Source of the DNA: Pedobacter glucosidilyticus DSM 23534 | GTDB taxonomy: Bacteria > Bacteroidota > Bacteroidia > Sphingobacteriales > Sphingobacteriaceae | Direction of reading: 5' to 3' | DNA length: 64,000 nucleotides | Assembly: GCF_000425145.1 (NCBI RefSeq) | Contig: NZ_KE384312.1 | Span: 1 to 64,000 of the forward strand | Shown: piece after piece, positions 46,086-52,696 of the stretch | Numbering within the stretch: position 1 is the stretch's first letter | Layout: each line of letters opens with the position of its first letter | Notes under the pieces: model-generated | What the model saw: the letters and a program-made list of their open reading frames with translations, nothing else | Told to the model about the DNA's origin: nothing | The model's database searches: none | Program-made: the position numbers and the translations under genes

Positions 46086-47492
46086 ATGAAAGAAGGCGCA
46101 GTAATACCAGAGGATTTTTTACTTTACAGCAAGCAGGCAAAGGTTTTATATCATGATTATGCTAAGGATTTACCTATCATAGATTATCACAATCATCTTC
46201 CTCCACAAGAGATTGCAGAAAATAAGAAATTTAGTACTTTAACTGAAATTTGGTTAAAAGGAGATCATTACAAATGGAGGGCTATGAGGGCTCTTGGTGT
46301 AGATGAAAATTATATCACCGGCAGTGCTTCTGATGAGGAAAAGTTTATGGCTTGGGCTAAAGTGGTTCCTGCAACAGTAAGAAATCCACTTTTTCATTGG
46401 ACACACATGGAACTTAAAAATCCTTTTGACGTTCAAAATTTCTTAAACGAGCAATCGGCATCAAAAATTTACAGTCATGCTAATGAGCTTTTAGCACAAG
46501 ATAATTTTTCTACACAAGGCTTATTAACCCAGTTTAATGTGGTGATGGTAGGTACTACAGATGATCCTTGTGATGACTTAAAATACCATAAGCAATTACA
46601 AGAAAGCGGCTTTGCAGTAAAGGTAAAACCATCTTTTCGTCCGGATAAATCTTTGTTAATTGGCGATGTAAATGCTTACAGAGCTTATATCAAAAAATTA
46701 TCAGCAGCATCGGGCATACAAATTACAGATGTTGAGTCTTTAATTGCAGCTTTAAGAAATAGGGTTGATTATTTTGAAGCTCATGGTGCAAGTATATCAG
46801 ACCATGGTTTACAAGCTATCCCATCAAAGTTAACTTTAACAGATGCCCAAAAACAAGAATACAAAAAGCTTTTAGCTGGTGATGTGGATACTTTCTCTGA
46901 TCCAGATGCTTTTGCTGGATATGTTTTAACAGAGTTAGGTAAAATTTATCATGAAAAAGGTTGGGTACAGCAATTCCATTTAGGTGCTATACGTAATAAC
47001 AACCACGGGATGATGAGAAAATTAGGTCCGGATACTGGTTACGATTCTATTGCCGATTTTAAACAAGCAGAAAGTCTTTCTAATTTCTTAGGCAATCTTT
47101 CTTTAGAAGACCAATTAACCAAAACCATTCTTTATAACCTTAACCCTGCTGATAATGATGTTTTTGCTACCATGATAGGCAATTTTGCCGATGGGAAAAC
47201 AAAAGGTAAAATGCAATTTGGCTCGGGCTGGTGGTTCTTAGACCAAAAAGATGGGATGGAGAAACAATTAAATTCCTTATCAAATATGGGAGTTCTGAGT
47301 ACTTTTGTTGGGATGTTAACAGATTCTAGAAGTTTCCTTTCTTACTCCAGACATGAATATTTCAGAAGAATATTATGTAATCTTTTAGGTTCTGAGATGG
47401 AGAATGGCCAAATCCCTGATGATGAAAAATGGATTGGACAAATTGTTAAAGATATTTGCTACTATAACGCTAAACAATACTTTAATTTATAA
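46086..47492 (+). CDS. uxaC: Glucuronate (galacturonate) isomerase
   Basis: First step of hexuronate breakdown: converts galacturonate to tagaturonate and glucuronate to fructuronate. The 468-residue length is standard. Metal- and substrate-site motifs are visible: IIDYHNHLPPQEIAENK, QFHLGAIRNNN and FGSGWWFLDQKDGM, with the late SFLSYSRHEYFRRILC typical of UxaC. It heads a tight group, with kdgK starting on its last base (TAATG). The reductase and dehydratase that join it to 2-keto-3-deoxygluconate are not in this window. Confidence 0.95.
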   Translation: MKEGAVIPEDFLLYSKQAKVLYHDYAKDLPIIDYHNHLPPQEIAENKKFSTLTEIWLKGDHYKWRAMRALGVDENYITGSASDEEKFMAWAKVVPATVRNPLFHWTHMELKNPFDVQNFLNEQSASKIYSHANELLAQDNFSTQGLLTQFNVVMVGTTDDPCDDLKYHKQLQESGFAVKVKPSFRPDKSLLIGDVNAYRAYIKKLSAASGIQITDVESLIAALRNRVDYFEAHGASISDHGLQAIPSKLTLTDAQKQEYKKLLAGDVDTFSDPDAFAGYVLTELGKIYHEKGWVQQFHLGAIRNNNHGMMRKLGPDTGYDSIADFKQAESLSNFLGNLSLEDQLTKTILYNLNPADNDVFATMIGNFADGKTKGKMQFGSGWWFLDQKDGMEKQLNSLSNMGVLSTFVGMLTDSRSFLSYSRHEYFRRILCNLLGSEMENGQIPDDEKWIGQIVKDICYYNAKQYFNL

Positions 47493-48511
47493 TGAGTAAA
47501 ATATTAACCTTTGGTGAGCTATTACTAAGAATTTCTCCGGACGCAAACGGAGCATGGTTAAAAAATAATGAAATCCCAATTTTTGTTGGCGGAGCCGAGC
47601 TAAATGTAGCTACCGGCTTAGCCATTTGGGGTGCTGATGTTTCTTTCTTTACTGCTTTACCAGATCATGACCTAACCAAAGAAATTTTAGGTTATATAGA
47701 AAATTTAAATATTGATGCTTCAAGAATCGCTTTACAAGGGGAGCGTATAGGGATTTATTACCTTACCCAAGGTAAAGATTTAAAAAGTGCCGGGGTTATC
47801 TATGATAGGGCATATTCATCATTTTATGCTTTAAAGCCAGGTGATGTAAATTGGGATAAAGTATTGGAAGGCGTAAGCCATTTTCAGTTTAGTGCTATTT
47901 GTCCTGCTGTTTCGCAAAATGCTGCAAACGTTTGCCTAGAAGCTGTGAAAGCTTGTAAAGCAAAAGGTATACATGTTTCTTTAGACTTGAATTACAGAGC
48001 AAAGCTTTGGAAATATGGTAAAAGCCCGGTAGAAATTATGCCAGAAATTGCTTCATATTGTGATTTAATTATGGGTAATTTATGGGCTGCTCATCAAATG
48101 TTGGGTACTGCATTAGATGATACCTTGATAGTACAAGATGCTAAGGAAGCTTATCTTAAACATGCCGAAAAAACATCTTTAGAGATAATGAGTAAATTTC
48201 CTAACTGTAAAGCAGTAGCCAATACCTTTAGGTTTGAAAACGGCGAGGGCATTAATTATTATACCACATTTTATCAAGAAGGTACACTACATGTATCTCA
48301 GCAATATCAGGTTGATAAAATTATCAATAAAGTAGGAAGTGGAGATGCCTTTATGGGTGGTTTACTTTTTGGTATATCATCTGGTTACAGCACACAAGAT
48401 ACCTTAGAATTTGCTACGGCTGCTGCTTTTAAAAAGCTATTTATCCCAACAGATTCAACATCAACAACTAAAGAAGAAATATTACAAACCATAAAAGACT
48501 ATGCCGCATAA
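47492..48511 (+). CDS. kdgK: 2-keto-3-deoxygluconate kinase (PfkB family)
   Basis: A 339-residue ribokinase-fold enzyme expected to phosphorylate 2-keto-3-deoxygluconate to KDPG. It begins ILTFGELLLRISP, has the substrate glycine pair FVGGAELNVA, and the C-terminal catalytic motif NKVGSGDAFMGGLLFG with the base Asp. The alternative sugar specificities of PfkB kinases are set aside because the next gene encodes the aldolase that takes KDPG. It overlaps uxaC by 1 bp and kdgA by 11 bp. Confidence 0.9.
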   Translation: MSKILTFGELLLRISPDANGAWLKNNEIPIFVGGAELNVATGLAIWGADVSFFTALPDHDLTKEILGYIENLNIDASRIALQGERIGIYYLTQGKDLKSAGVIYDRAYSSFYALKPGDVNWDKVLEGVSHFQFSAICPAVSQNAANVCLEAVKACKAKGIHVSLDLNYRAKLWKYGKSPVEIMPEIASYCDLIMGNLWAAHQMLGTALDDTLIVQDAKEAYLKHAEKTSLEIMSKFPNCKAVANTFRFENGEGINYYTTFYQEGTLHVSQQYQVDKIINKVGSGDAFMGGLLFGISSGYSTQDTLEFATAAAFKKLFIPTDSTSTTKEEILQTIKDYAA

Positions 48512-49157
48512 ACAAACTGTCTTAGACACCATTATTGGCCAGGGGATGCTACCTCTGTTTTATCATGAAGATAAAGAGCTAAGCTTAGCTATCATTAAAA
48601 CCTTATACGAAGCGGGTGTAAAAACGCTAGAATATACTAACCGTGGTCCGGCTGCTTTAGAAAATTTTAGATATTTAAAATCACAATTAAAAGATCTTCC
48701 TGATTTTTACTTAGGGATAGGAACCATTAAAAACACCAAAGAGGCACAAGATTTTATTGATGCTGGTGCCGATTATATTGTATGCCCTACGGTAAATATT
48801 GCGGTGGGCCAATTGGTAAATAGCCTTGATATGCTTTGGATACCTGGCTGTATGACACCTACAGAAATTAGTACTGCACAAGGTGTGGGTGCATTATTGA
48901 TTAAACTTTTCCCTGCAAATGTTTTAGGGACAGGTTTTGTAAGTGCGATAAGAGAACTTTTTGTTGGGCAACATTTTATGCCAACAGGAGGTGTTGAAAT
49001 TGAAGAAAAAAATATTCGAGAGTGGTTTAAAGCAGGTGTTTCTGCAGTTGGAATGGGGAGCAAACTCATCAGTAAAGATGTGATGCAAAACAGAGCTTTA
49101 GACGAGTTAGCAAAAAACACAGCAGAAGCTTTTAGGCTGATAAAACTTTGTAAATAA
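48501..49157 (+). CDS. eda: KDPG/KHG aldolase
   Basis: Splits 2-keto-3-deoxy-6-phosphogluconate into pyruvate and glyceraldehyde 3-phosphate. The 218-residue class I aldolase has the base Glu in VKTLEYTNRGPAAL, the Schiff-base Lys in LLIKLFPANVLG, and the phosphate-binding end FMPTGGVE...SAVGMGSKLI. All are in place. It overlaps the kinase gene by 11 bp, so the pair is translationally coupled. The transporter gene follows 28 bp later. Confidence 0.93.
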   Translation: MPHKQTVLDTIIGQGMLPLFYHEDKELSLAIIKTLYEAGVKTLEYTNRGPAALENFRYLKSQLKDLPDFYLGIGTIKNTKEAQDFIDAGADYIVCPTVNIAVGQLVNSLDMLWIPGCMTPTEISTAQGVGALLIKLFPANVLGTGFVSAIRELFVGQHFMPTGGVEIEEKNIREWFKAGVSAVGMGSKLISKDVMQNRALDELAKNTAEAFRLIKLCK

Positions 49158-49185
49158 ATCCAAATTATATAAACCAAAAATAAAT

Positions 49186-50751
49186 ATGACGAACGAAAAA
49201 ATAGGAAAATTTAGGTGGACGGTATGTGCCATGTTATTTTTCGCTACAACAATCAATTATCTGGATAGACAGGTACTTTCACTTACGTGGAAGGATTTTA
49301 TTTCTCCTGAGTTCCACTGGACAAATAATGATTACGGTAATATTACGGCACTTTTTTCTATTTTTTATGCTGTATCCATGCTATTTGCAGGAAGATTTGT
49401 GGATTGGATGGATACTAAAAAGGGATTTTTGTGGGCTATAGGTGTTTGGTCTGTAGGTGCCTGTCTTCACGCTTATTGTGGTATAGCTACATCTGGTATT
49501 ATTACCGGGAATTGGTTTGTAGGATTTCAAGGGGCTAAAGAATCATTAGAAGTGGTTAACGATACTGCTTTAATCATTTCTGTAAGTGTAACCTTATTTA
49601 TTTTCGCTCGTCTTGTTCTTGCTGTTGGTGAAGCTGGAAATTTTCCTGCTGCTATAAAAGCAACGGCAGAGTTTTTTCCCAAAAAAGATAGGGCGTTTGC
49701 TACTAGTATTTTCAATGCTGGCGCAACGGTAGGTGCTTTGGCAGCTCCGGTTACTATACCTTTCATAGCTGCTGCTTGGGGTTGGGAGATGTCATTTATC
49801 ATTATAGGTGCGCTAGGTTTTGTTTGGATGGGTTTCTGGATATTTTATTATAAAAAACCAGAGGTGCATCCAAAAGTTAATGCTGCTGAATTGGCTTATA
49901 TCCAGCAAGATATTATTGCAGACAGGAAATTGGTAGATTATGTTGAAGAAACTAGCACTAAGGCTTCTTTTGCCGATTGTTTCAAGTATAAACAAACTTG
50001 GGCATTTGCTTTTGGTAAGTTTATGACGGATGGAGTATGGTGGTTTTTCTTGTTCTGGGCACCTGCTTATTTAAGTTCTGTTTATGGAATGGATTCTACA
50101 GAAAGTGCATTACCATTATTTGTATTGTATATTATAACCTTACTTTCAATCATTGGAGGTTGGTTACCTACCTATTTTGTTGATAAAAAAGGTATGAATC
50201 CTTATGAGGGACGTATGAGAGCCATGTTAATATTTGCTTTTTTCCCGTTACTGGCATTACTTGCGCAACCTTTAGGTGGTATTTCTTATTGGATACCAGT
50301 TATTATTATTGGTATTTCCGGAGCGGCACACCAAGCTTGGTCTGCAAATATTTTCACTACTGTAGGAGATATGTTTCCTAAAAAGGCTATTGCTACTGTA
50401 ACAGGCATAGGAGGTATGGCTGGGGGTTTAGGCTCGTTTCTTATTAACAAGGGTTCTGGTTTATTATTTGATTTTACGCAAAAGAACTGGAGCACTGTTA
50501 ATGGAGTAAATGTTACAGAACAATATCCTCAATTGAAAGATGCTGAGCAGGCAAAAGCTTTCTTTACAGAAAAAGGAGTTGCTAATACGGAAGAGTTTCT
50601 GAAACAGTTATCTGCTTCTGGTGAGACTGTTGTAAATGGAATTAATTCTGGATATATGATTATATTTTCTATCTGCGCCTTTTGTTATTTGATTGGCTGG
50701 GTGGTTATGAAATCACTAGTTCCAAAATATAGCCCTATTAAAGGATTATAA
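49186..50751 (+). CDS. MFS transporter, hexuronate (ExuT/ACS) type
   Basis: A 521-residue major facilitator with about 12 membrane helices. The ACS-family opening FFATTINYLDRQVLSL and the motif-A-like RFVDWMDTKKGF in the first loop are typical of ExuT-like uronate/H+ symporters. It is about 80 residues longer than E. coli ExuT. Extra sequence is found after helix 3 (residues near 95-130) and between helices 11 and 12 (around 435-495). It closes the uxaC-kdgK-eda group, which points to galacturonate or glucuronate as cargo. Confidence 0.87.
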   Translation: MTNEKIGKFRWTVCAMLFFATTINYLDRQVLSLTWKDFISPEFHWTNNDYGNITALFSIFYAVSMLFAGRFVDWMDTKKGFLWAIGVWSVGACLHAYCGIATSGIITGNWFVGFQGAKESLEVVNDTALIISVSVTLFIFARLVLAVGEAGNFPAAIKATAEFFPKKDRAFATSIFNAGATVGALAAPVTIPFIAAAWGWEMSFIIIGALGFVWMGFWIFYYKKPEVHPKVNAAELAYIQQDIIADRKLVDYVEETSTKASFADCFKYKQTWAFAFGKFMTDGVWWFFLFWAPAYLSSVYGMDSTESALPLFVLYIITLLSIIGGWLPTYFVDKKGMNPYEGRMRAMLIFAFFPLLALLAQPLGGISYWIPVIIIGISGAAHQAWSANIFTTVGDMFPKKAIATVTGIGGMAGGLGSFLINKGSGLLFDFTQKNWSTVNGVNVTEQYPQLKDAEQAKAFFTEKGVANTEEFLKQLSASGETVVNGINSGYMIIFSICAFCYLIGWVVMKSLVPKYSPIKGL

Positions 50752-50782
50752 CTTATATATTGTTTTTTAAGCAGTTACGTAA

Positions 50783-51008
50783 AGAGGTTGTTTCAGAAAT
50801 CATATTTGTCACATTGAGTAGATCTTTGTTGTCATCCTGAGGTCTAATATATTTCATATAAATCAATATGAAATGACGTTTTTTACAAAATACAATAATC
50901 CTGATAATCAGTTTATTATAAAAAACGTCAATGGTAGCGAAGTCGAAGGATAAAAAAGGCTTCGACTCCGCTCAGCCTGACATAAAGTGGTGATTTGAGA
51001 CAGCCTCT
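50783..51008. repeat. MITE-like element with terminal inverted repeats
   Basis: Its ends AGAGGTTGTTTCA (from 50783) and the complement of TGAGACAGCCTCT (to 51008) match over about 18 bp with a few differences. Inside are a perfect 12-bp inverted repeat (50874-50885 with 50919-50930) and a 12-bp hairpin around AGTCGAAG/CTTCGACT (50937-50948 with 50960-50971, one mismatch). CTTCGACTCCGCTCAG-type repeats are scattered through many Bacteroidota genomes. There is no coding capacity, so it would move only with an outside transposase. Confidence 0.6.
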
Positions 51009-51146
51009 TTTTTTTATGGAATCTTTATAATATTTACCAGTATTTAAGCCTATGGTTGTATCGGTCTGAATTTTTGGGTTATCATATTATTAGGCTGATG
51101 ATGATTTTTTTTGTTATGAGGAGGAGATTTCAAGATTATATTTCAG

Positions 51147-51168
51147 GGGGGCTTAGTGTATTTTTTTA
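51147..51168. repeat. 22-bp direct repeat, copy 1
   Basis: A G-run, CTTAGTGTA and a T-run, identical to 51286-51307. The two copies bracket the 11-bp tandem array. Confidence 0.75.
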
Positions 51169-51237
51169 CTGAAAATGCCAAATTTTATACCCCCTCCAGA
51201 TGCTGGAAACGCACTTTTTAAGATTAGCTTTCTGGTG

Positions 51238-51281
51238 GGTAGCTGTAAGGTAGCCGTAAGGTTGCTGTAAGCTAACTGTAA
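51238..51281. repeat. 11-bp tandem repeat, four units
   Basis: Units in order: GGTAGCTGTAA, GGTAGCCGTAA, GGTTGCTGTAA, GCTAACTGTAA. They follow one another without spacers, and the array is followed at once by GCAAG and then the second 22-bp repeat. The 11-bp period is one helical turn, so each unit would present the same face. Confidence 0.8.
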
Positions 51282-51285
51282 GCAA

Positions 51286-51307
51286 GGGGGCTTAGTGTAT
51301 TTTTTTA
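51286..51307. repeat. 22-bp direct repeat, copy 2
   Basis: Identical to 51147-51168, 139 bp to the right. Both copies end in seven T's and an A. Confidence 0.75.
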
Positions 51308-51589
51308 AAAAAAATAGTTGTCCGTTCTGAGGGGTATTTATGGTGTTAAAAAATAGATAATTTCTGAAAGGTTTTTTGGGTTAGACTAGGATTTTATCAG
51401 ATACACCAGGGTTGTTTTTTCGGTTTAAATATTTTTATTGGGTAAGTATTAACATCAAGCATATATTCTTTAAAATATTGTTCATATAGATTAGTGGGTT
51501 TGATTGTCAACAATACTTTGATAAGATGTGGTAAGTTTCACGAGCTTATTTGGGGTAATGGCATAAGTTGTTTGAATGATCATTTACTA

Positions 51590-52603
51590 TTATACTCCAT
51601 TAGGATGAAGCGTGGTATCTAGCATAATAGATTCAAACTCTTCTATTGGGTATTTACTTTCAATAATACTGATAAGCATTTCTGCAGCTTTTTCGCCCAT
51701 CTCAAAGGCCGGTTGCCTGATATAGGAAAGGGAAGGATTCAACAACTCTACTAATTCTGAATTACTAAAACCTGCAACAAGAATATCATGATGATGAGTA
51801 GCATATTTTTTCATGGTACTTAAACAGCCAGTACTTAATCTGTCGCTGGCAACAAAAATGGCGTCTGGAGGATTGTCATGTGATAGAAATTCTCTCACAG
51901 CAATTTCTACTTCTATTTGATCACGGCCACCGTGTTTACAATATTTAATAAGTTCTTTATCTATAGGGATATGATGTTGTCTTAAAGCTTCTTCATAGCC
52001 TTTTTGTCTTTCGGCTGTAATAGAAAGCTGCGAAGCATTTGCCAAATGAGCAATACGTTTACATCCTTTACTAATTAAAAATTCTGTAGCTTCAAAAGCA
52101 CCTTTAAAATTATTGCTAGATACTTTATGGGTATTCATAGAATTTAAAATTCTATCGAAAAAAACTATAGGTAAACCTTGGTCATGTAATTTTTCAAGAT
52201 GGCTATAATCTTTAGTTTCTGCACTTAAAGATACCAGTAAACCGTCAACAGATCTGTTTGCTAAATGTTCTACGTTAATAACTTCGCGTTCATAACTATC
52301 ATGAGTTTGGGAGATGATAACATGGTAACCTTTACTATAAGCTACAGATTCTATACCGTCAATAGCTTGAGAAAAAAACTGATTAGCAACCTCGCATACA
52401 ATCACACCAATAGAATAGCTTCTTCTTTCTTTTAGACTTAATGCAATAGGATTTCTTTTGAAATTAACTTTCTCGGCATATTCTAAAACTATCTTTTTAG
52501 TTTCTTCACTAATTTCATATCCACCTCTTAAGGCTCTGGATACAGTTGAAGTAGATAGATTTAAAGCTTTGGCAATATCTTTTATCGTAGTAGGTTTAAA
52601 CAT
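51590..52603 (-). CDS. LacI-family regulator of the pectin/uronate locus
   Basis: A 337-residue LacI/GalR protein. The helix-turn-helix and hinge read TIKDIAKALNLSTSTVSRALRGGYEIS...NPIALSLKERRSYSIGVIV, followed by a sugar-binding sensor domain. The ATG at 52603 is preferred to an in-frame TTG at 52630, because it places the DNA-binding domain at the normal N-terminal position. It is divergent from susC, with two GGCATCGAT-type motifs in between, and convergent to the uronate genes. A uronate or KDG-like inducer is likely. SusCD loci are more often run by HTCS or sigma/anti-sigma pairs, so LacI control is less common. Confidence 0.85.
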   Translation of the reverse strand: MFKPTTIKDIAKALNLSTSTVSRALRGGYEISEETKKIVLEYAEKVNFKRNPIALSLKERRSYSIGVIVCEVANQFFSQAIDGIESVAYSKGYHVIISQTHDSYEREVINVEHLANRSVDGLLVSLSAETKDYSHLEKLHDQGLPIVFFDRILNSMNTHKVSSNNFKGAFEATEFLISKGCKRIAHLANASQLSITAERQKGYEEALRQHHIPIDKELIKYCKHGGRDQIEVEIAVREFLSHDNPPDAIFVASDRLSTGCLSTMKKYATHHHDILVAGFSNSELVELLNPSLSYIRQPAFEMGEKAAEMLISIIESKYPIEEFESIMLDTTLHPNGV

Positions 52604-52696
52604 TAGGCTGGGTGGTTTTAAAAGCTTCAAGATAAATTTAGAAAAAATATATTTAAAAGCGTTTTTTAAGTTAAAAAATGTTGATTTAACACTTAC

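Follow-up and report, generated by a model that had tools for sequence, protein, structure and literature searches.

MITEs are small, non-coding, dispersed elements of constant length that have no transposase of their own, and sites of the PHO-box type consist of 11-bp direct repeats bound by response regulators. CRISPRs contain repeats of ~23-50 bp with unique spacers of similar length. REPINs, as outlined in the sections cited, are short, extragenic and non-autonomous repeats found in some genomes only, and the RAYT gene associated with them is mostly single-copy and carries an adjacent repeat (PMC3116915; PMC8049555). The parC site of plasmid R1 is described in the cited passage as being composed of 11-bp iterons, two in 22 bp (PMC4949242). 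In the literature listings searched on REPIN/RAYT in Bacteroidetes, 11-bp repeats in Sphingobacteriaceae, iterons in Bacteroides, REP/MITE in Pedobacter and DUF6266, no published description of the element analyzed here was found.

The window, i.e., the whole stretch of 64,000 nucleotides analyzed, contains the exact 22-mer GGGGGCTTAGTGTATTTTTTTA twice, at 51147-51168 and 51286-51307, 139 bp apart. This pair explains all three 20-mers repeated within 1 kb across the 64-kb window. Between the two repeats, an 11-bp array at 51238-51282 (4.1 copies, 82% matches) obtained a Tandem Repeats Finder score of 62, the best of 27 rows in the window, while the runner-up array scored 42. Lag-11 matches over 34 positions numbered 28 at 51238, compared with a maximum of 24 in 200 dinucleotide shuffles of the window. 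The element is flanked by two convergent genes, named by eye as an MFS transporter (end 50751) and a LacI-type regulator (end 51590), and the gap separating them is ORF-free. A sequence-only reading of this DNA had described identical 22-bp repeats around four 11-bp units in a gap without genes, and all three points were borne out; its remark that units of 11 bp keep no reading frame also holds. A chance origin of the window array and boxes was ruled out by the shuffles and by further copies in the genome. The parts of the element are as follows.

51145..51307, + strand: whole dispersed element, 163 bp; limits from the alignment to the other genome copies, with non-homologous flanks outside.
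51147..51168, + strand: left 22-bp repeat; core box CTTAGTGTATT at 51152-51162, invariant in 9/9 aligned copies.
51169..51237, + strand: interior spacer; contains the stretch GCTGGAAACGCACTTTTT, conserved in the nine-copy alignment.
51238..51281, + strand: four head-to-tail 11-bp units, GGTAGCTGTAA, GGTAGCCGTAA, GGTTGCTGTAA and GCTAACTGTAA; unit class also in 9/399 family genomes.
51286..51307, + strand: right 22-bp repeat; invariant core box CTTAGTGTATT at 51291-51301.

Two further observations concern the surroundings. The gene order in 46086-52630 resembles, by eye, a hexuronate block (uxaC-, kdgK- and kdgA-like genes, MFS transporter, LacI regulator). A separate high-copy intergenic repeat containing GGCTTCGACTCCGCTCAGCCTGACA is located at 50782-51014; it includes an imperfect inverted pair (50874-50893 and 50911-50930), and many partial copies of it were present in the window's own genome (G000), in G010, G012 and G013 and in others.

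When G000 (62 contigs, 4.02 Mb) was searched for the repeat, as the sequence-only reading had proposed, three further full copies with both boxes were found. The four copies are that of the window on contig C3, C13:73904-74066, C4:141608-141770 and C15:4049-4212 (minus strand), the latter three being 77-82% identical to the window copy. A 21-base box pattern with ≤3 mismatches detected seven boxes in G000, all within the four copies, and none with the reversed control; the same search revealed no boxed autonomous copy in G000. A lone box-like sequence, CTTAGTGTATTTTTTT, with no array or partner, was observed at G000:C2:111827 (L006). Among the 18 genomes of the genus, the boxed element was present in three, namely G000, G010 (Pedobacter glucosidilyticus UBA7667) and G002. 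It was represented there by ten copies at seven distinct sites, the third G002 copy having been added by a profile search of 399 family genomes. These sites were spread over all kinds of intergenic regions, and the 1.5-kb flanks of distinct loci had no common homology beyond scattered short matches. The window element almost certainly belongs to a dispersed repeat family. The sequence-only reading would have been refuted by an array that is unique and absent in relatives, and the window element is neither.

The two direct boxes CTTAGTGTATT were spaced by 138-139 bp in all ten copies, and the interior was only ~67% alike between species. In the nine-copy alignment, 22 of 22 box columns were invariant, as were 19 of 44 in the array and 22 of 93 elsewhere; comparing the box with the 41 invariant columns among 137 non-box columns gave a Fisher p of 1e-10. 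The tenth copy, the third of G002, displayed one change in the left box. No 11-bp periodicity beyond the array was detected in the interior of the six boxed copies tested. The pair-of-boxes pattern matched six stretches in GTDB r220 contigs, a search that may not cover the window's own genome; three were P. glucosidilyticus copies and three were unrelated coding or tandem-repeat sequence. The matches outside the genus, i.e., these last three and two in IMG/VR, were rejected, all lying inside such sequence. A phage or plasmid origin was rejected, as blastn found the element in 0 of 50,697 phage records and 0 of 72,556 plasmid records.

The 11-bp unit is distributed more widely than the boxes. 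The array pattern GTNGCNNTAAN (three units, ≤1 mismatch) was identified in 9 of 399 Sphingobacteriaceae genomes (G000, G010, G047, G102, G168, G180, G265, G274 and G358) and the reversed-pattern control in 0 of 399. Arrays of this class are generally multi-copy within a positive genome. In G000, two unboxed arrays were detected, C15:58688-58730, which is common to G010, and C13:4441-4472. Among the matches listed, 27 array loci from seven of the nine genomes were analyzed, with at least one further G102 array left out. Mean identity in the 210 bp upstream of these 27 arrays was 0.385 at lag 11, 0.349 at lag 22 and 0.322 at lag 33; the corresponding values for 133 control windows taken from these loci were 0.263, 0.265 and 0.279. 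In the relatives, the array forms part of a longer stretch with 11-bp periodicity. IMG/VR contigs L293, L292, L291, L294 and L289/L290 also contained arrays matching this degenerate pattern; L293 has, in addition, 11-bp-periodic sequence upstream (lag-11 0.44-0.46), and in L292 the array lies at the end of a small gene judged HTH-like by eye.

At four of the 27 array loci, the array was located 115-118 bp before the ATG of a gene encoding a protein of 219-240 residues. A four-member profile detected this family in 8 of 399 genomes (G001, G018, G047, G102, G168, G265, G274 and G358), with one match in six of them, two in G274 and three in G018, two of the latter being fragments. In all 11 gene-family loci, the two G018 fragments included, an array started 111-123 bp before the ATG with a score of 17-21 of 21; seven of these loci were independent of the four seed loci, and the array was present in 7/7. 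Among the comparison ORFs in array loci, 109 of 118 scored ≤14 and nine scored ≥19; only scores were computed, and we infer that these nine are the ORFs behind the arrays used to choose the loci. Array-positive and gene-positive genomes overlapped in six of 399 (hypergeometric p 4e-10; 2e-5 without the three seed genomes), and solo arrays occurred alongside the gene in G047, G102, G168, G265, G274 and G358. The dN/dS of the family was ~0.13 in two comparisons, the third being saturated in dS, indicating that the companion protein is real.

Ten members of the family had no significant Pfam or PADLOC match, and one family member and the protein P0005 had none in NCBIfam or PHROGs. The HUH pattern was found in 1/10 members and was not conserved, and Pfam Y1_Tnp matched 0/10. 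Among the companion proteins, P0001 had no match in phages and no relative in viral contigs, and P0004 had no match in plasmids. By profile search, no family gene was detected in G000, G010 or G002. The unboxed array of G000 at C13:4441-4472 lies 140 bp before P0005, a 235-aa ORF with no convincing homolog in the 399 genomes and no match to the companion profile; P0005 may be a family member in view of its location and of a short basic motif, the only two points in favor.

Two candidate relatives of the companion family were rejected. Despite a likeness by eye, the family had no DUF6266 profile match and hhalign against one DUF6266 protein was not significant; a 187-aa gene beside the C15 copy also looked alike by eye and was unsupported by hhalign. 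A DUF6266 protein had no match in phages or plasmids. A DUF6266 gene (Pfam E 9e-31) was observed beside a solo array in G102 (L261, G102:C6:12200-20300), with an upstream region containing 11-bp repeats of its own, TGCGGAGCTGG, TGCGGAGAAGG and TGCGGACTAG. Other orphan families of Bacteroidota perhaps share such 11-bp-repeat upstream regions.

The gene and its upstream array are 82% identical in G265 and G358 along an 883-bp alignment, which starts ~226 bp upstream of the ATG, stops directly past the stop codon and is sharply delimited at both ends. The 1.5-kb flanks were unrelated save for short stretches, one of which looks by eye like a tRNA gene common to several loci. Since the alignment between these two related species is bounded by unalignable flanks, the array-gene unit appears to move. 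Five solo arrays of G265/G358 retained sequence as far as the approximate position of the start codon, and three of the five retained traces of about the first 30 bases of the gene. Array-gene units were also observed on opposite sides of the same HxlR-azoreductase pair (names by eye) at L253 and L255 in G274 and G168.

With moderate confidence, we favor the explanation that the window element is a non-coding, non-autonomous dispersed repeat carrying a phased protein-binding array, with the direct boxes as its recognised ends. Such an element would have spread at an earlier time within a single Pedobacter-like lineage of bacteria. The array would consist of helically phased sites for a protein sitting on one face of the DNA, and the two direct boxes would mark the ends that are recognised. 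The element may be related, as a gene-less form, to the array-plus-gene units found in other Sphingobacteriaceae. In those units, the orphan protein, or a host factor recruited by the array, would help to copy or maintain array-bearing DNA, a role somewhat like that of the RAYT gene with its REPINs. The window array is likely a protein-binding site, a prediction from its one unit per helical turn, the conserved unit class and the lack of RNA or protein coding. The link of the window element to the array-gene units is inferred more weakly and is no more than plausible, since the wider periodicity is missing from the boxed copies. With no 11-bp periodicity in their interiors outside the array, the unit alone would carry their homology to the gene-linked arrays, which speaks against simple homology. 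Of the three candidates in the sequence-only reading, the protein-binding array and the scar of a mobile element were strengthened, in view of dispersed copies with fixed geometry, unrelated flanks and array relatives that move with a gene, and the small-RNA gene was not.

The RAYT/REPIN arrangement may serve as the closest working analogy. Short, non-autonomous extragenic copies scattered over the chromosome of some genomes only, and a mostly single-copy companion gene with an adjacent repeat, are common to both as far as the relatives of the window element are concerned. Unlike REPINs, neither the window element nor the 27 relatives displayed a palindromic hairpin doublet, the boxes are direct instead of inverted, and boxed copies number three to four per genome. 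The companion protein, moreover, had no tyrosine-transposase (Y1) match or recurrent HUH motif. Since neither a hairpin doublet nor a HUH transposase, two defining features of REPIN/RAYT systems, was found when looked for, the element was not filed under them. Like MITEs, the window element is small, non-coding, dispersed and of constant length, but it has direct-repeat ends and no terminal inverted repeats, the only inverted pair near its ends being a low-complexity T/A run; no target duplication was seen at the orthologous loci of G012 and G013, which lack more than the element, and no insertion sequence with matching ends was found. It differs from CRISPRs, as had been stated from the sequence, in having two boxes only and a spacer that is homologous between copies.

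A broader proposal, which is possible but doubtful, is that these sequences represent a new kind of self-spreading sequence, in which a long 11-bp-periodic platform and its one fast-diverging orphan gene would move together as a unit of ~880 bp with sharp bounds and no recognisable transposase or inverted ends, leaving solo arrays dispersed along the chromosome. The boxed window element would then be a gene-less, end-boxed offshoot.

Alternatively, the array might be a cis-regulatory operator, i.e., a site for a host transcription factor such as a response regulator acting on 11-bp direct repeats, with the copies forming a regulon. The constant distance of 111-123 bp before the ATG of the companion genes is as expected for an upstream activating site, and the unit class is conserved across genera. 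As in the PHO box, the units are 11-bp direct repeats, with CTGTAA resembling the CTGTCA half of that box. However, the arrays do not precede a consistent gene set as PHO boxes would, the window copy is located between convergent genes, and the intergenic regions that harbor the seven boxed sites are of every kind. When the four gene-bearing loci were excluded, 12 of the 23 solo arrays were between tandem, six between convergent and five between divergent genes, and only 4 of the 12 in tandem placement were oriented with the genes, indicating that solo arrays are not tied to promoters. Clustering revealed no common neighbor that would explain the solo arrays, the orphan family excepted. We consider an operator unlikely.

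A chromosome-organising or partition-like site, in which iterons would bind a filament-forming protein (like ParR on R1 parC) for positioning or packing of DNA, is quite unlikely. As in plasmid iterons and R1 parC, the 11-bp units are arranged head-to-tail with one unit per helical turn, and the long 11-bp-periodic region of the relatives, the several copies per chromosome and the stable vertical inheritance in G000/G010 are in agreement with such a site. Unlike those systems, the element is chromosomal and dispersed, and none of the plasmid records matched it; no partition or replication genes, and no ParM-like neighbor, were recognised by eye in the ORF lists alongside. A distribution over 9/399 genomes is also patchy for an essential site, and the companion gene lacks significant Pfam, NCBIfam, PHROG or PADLOC matches.

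The orthologous loci bear on the view that the element is inert debris, i.e., a fragment of intergenic DNA, duplicated long ago, that bears a micro-satellite by chance and has no present function or mobility. Three of the four G000 copies had orthologous flanks in G010 and are therefore old; the window copy did not. The LacI gene has another MFS paralogue as its neighbor in G010 and G013, and the short gap between the two contains no element. The elements of C4 and C13 were absent from the orthologous loci in G012 and G013. At these loci, no clean empty site or target duplication was found; the stretch missing in G012 and G013 is longer than the element, and hence there is no clean junction. 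At C4, the preceding gene takes its stop codon from the left box and has a C-terminus unlike the one in G012 and G013, which fits an insertion. In the orthologous pairs, substitutions numbered 9 in 488 bp of the element and 19 in 810 bp of the flanks; at this depth, the element does not stand out as specially conserved, which is what debris would predict. Against this, the boxes are invariant and the length is fixed at 138-139 bp in the ten copies despite interior differences of up to a third, and arrays of this class occur again in other genera and before a gene under purifying selection. Inert debris is thus very improbable.

Folding of the window copy was no better than that of shuffles on either strand (z -0.45). 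Among the nine copies, one from G002 (G002_a) reached z -3.4 on the + strand, the other eight ranging between -1.8 and +0.8, and on the minus strand another (G002_b) reached -2.1, the rest ranging between -0.5 and +1.5. A structured small RNA or RNA element is hardly credible. In its favor are a hairpin of 7 bp, capped by a GUAA loop, which the interior units of the G000 and G010 copies can form and in which one pair has changed on both sides, and the single G002_a value. Against it, the consensus fold has an unfavorable (positive) covariation term and a helix that is broken in G002, no Rfam match reached the gathering score (best E values of 2-7, the chance level), and no consistent fold signal was detected in the array loci of the 27 relatives.

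Returning to the dispersed, protein-binding repeat, conservation between genera was stronger in the array unit than in the adjacent proteins, for some of which identity was only 18-25%. The binder may therefore be a conserved host protein instead of the orphan protein. Small repeat families of bacteria are often ignored, and a repeat class tied to one orphan gene offers a handle on the spread of non-transposase genes. As the companion family had no significant match in the databases searched, a structural or a binding study would be immediately informative. Binding of the array by either the orphan protein or a filament protein of the host would make this a new system of DNA-guided copying or chromosome structuring in Bacteroidota.
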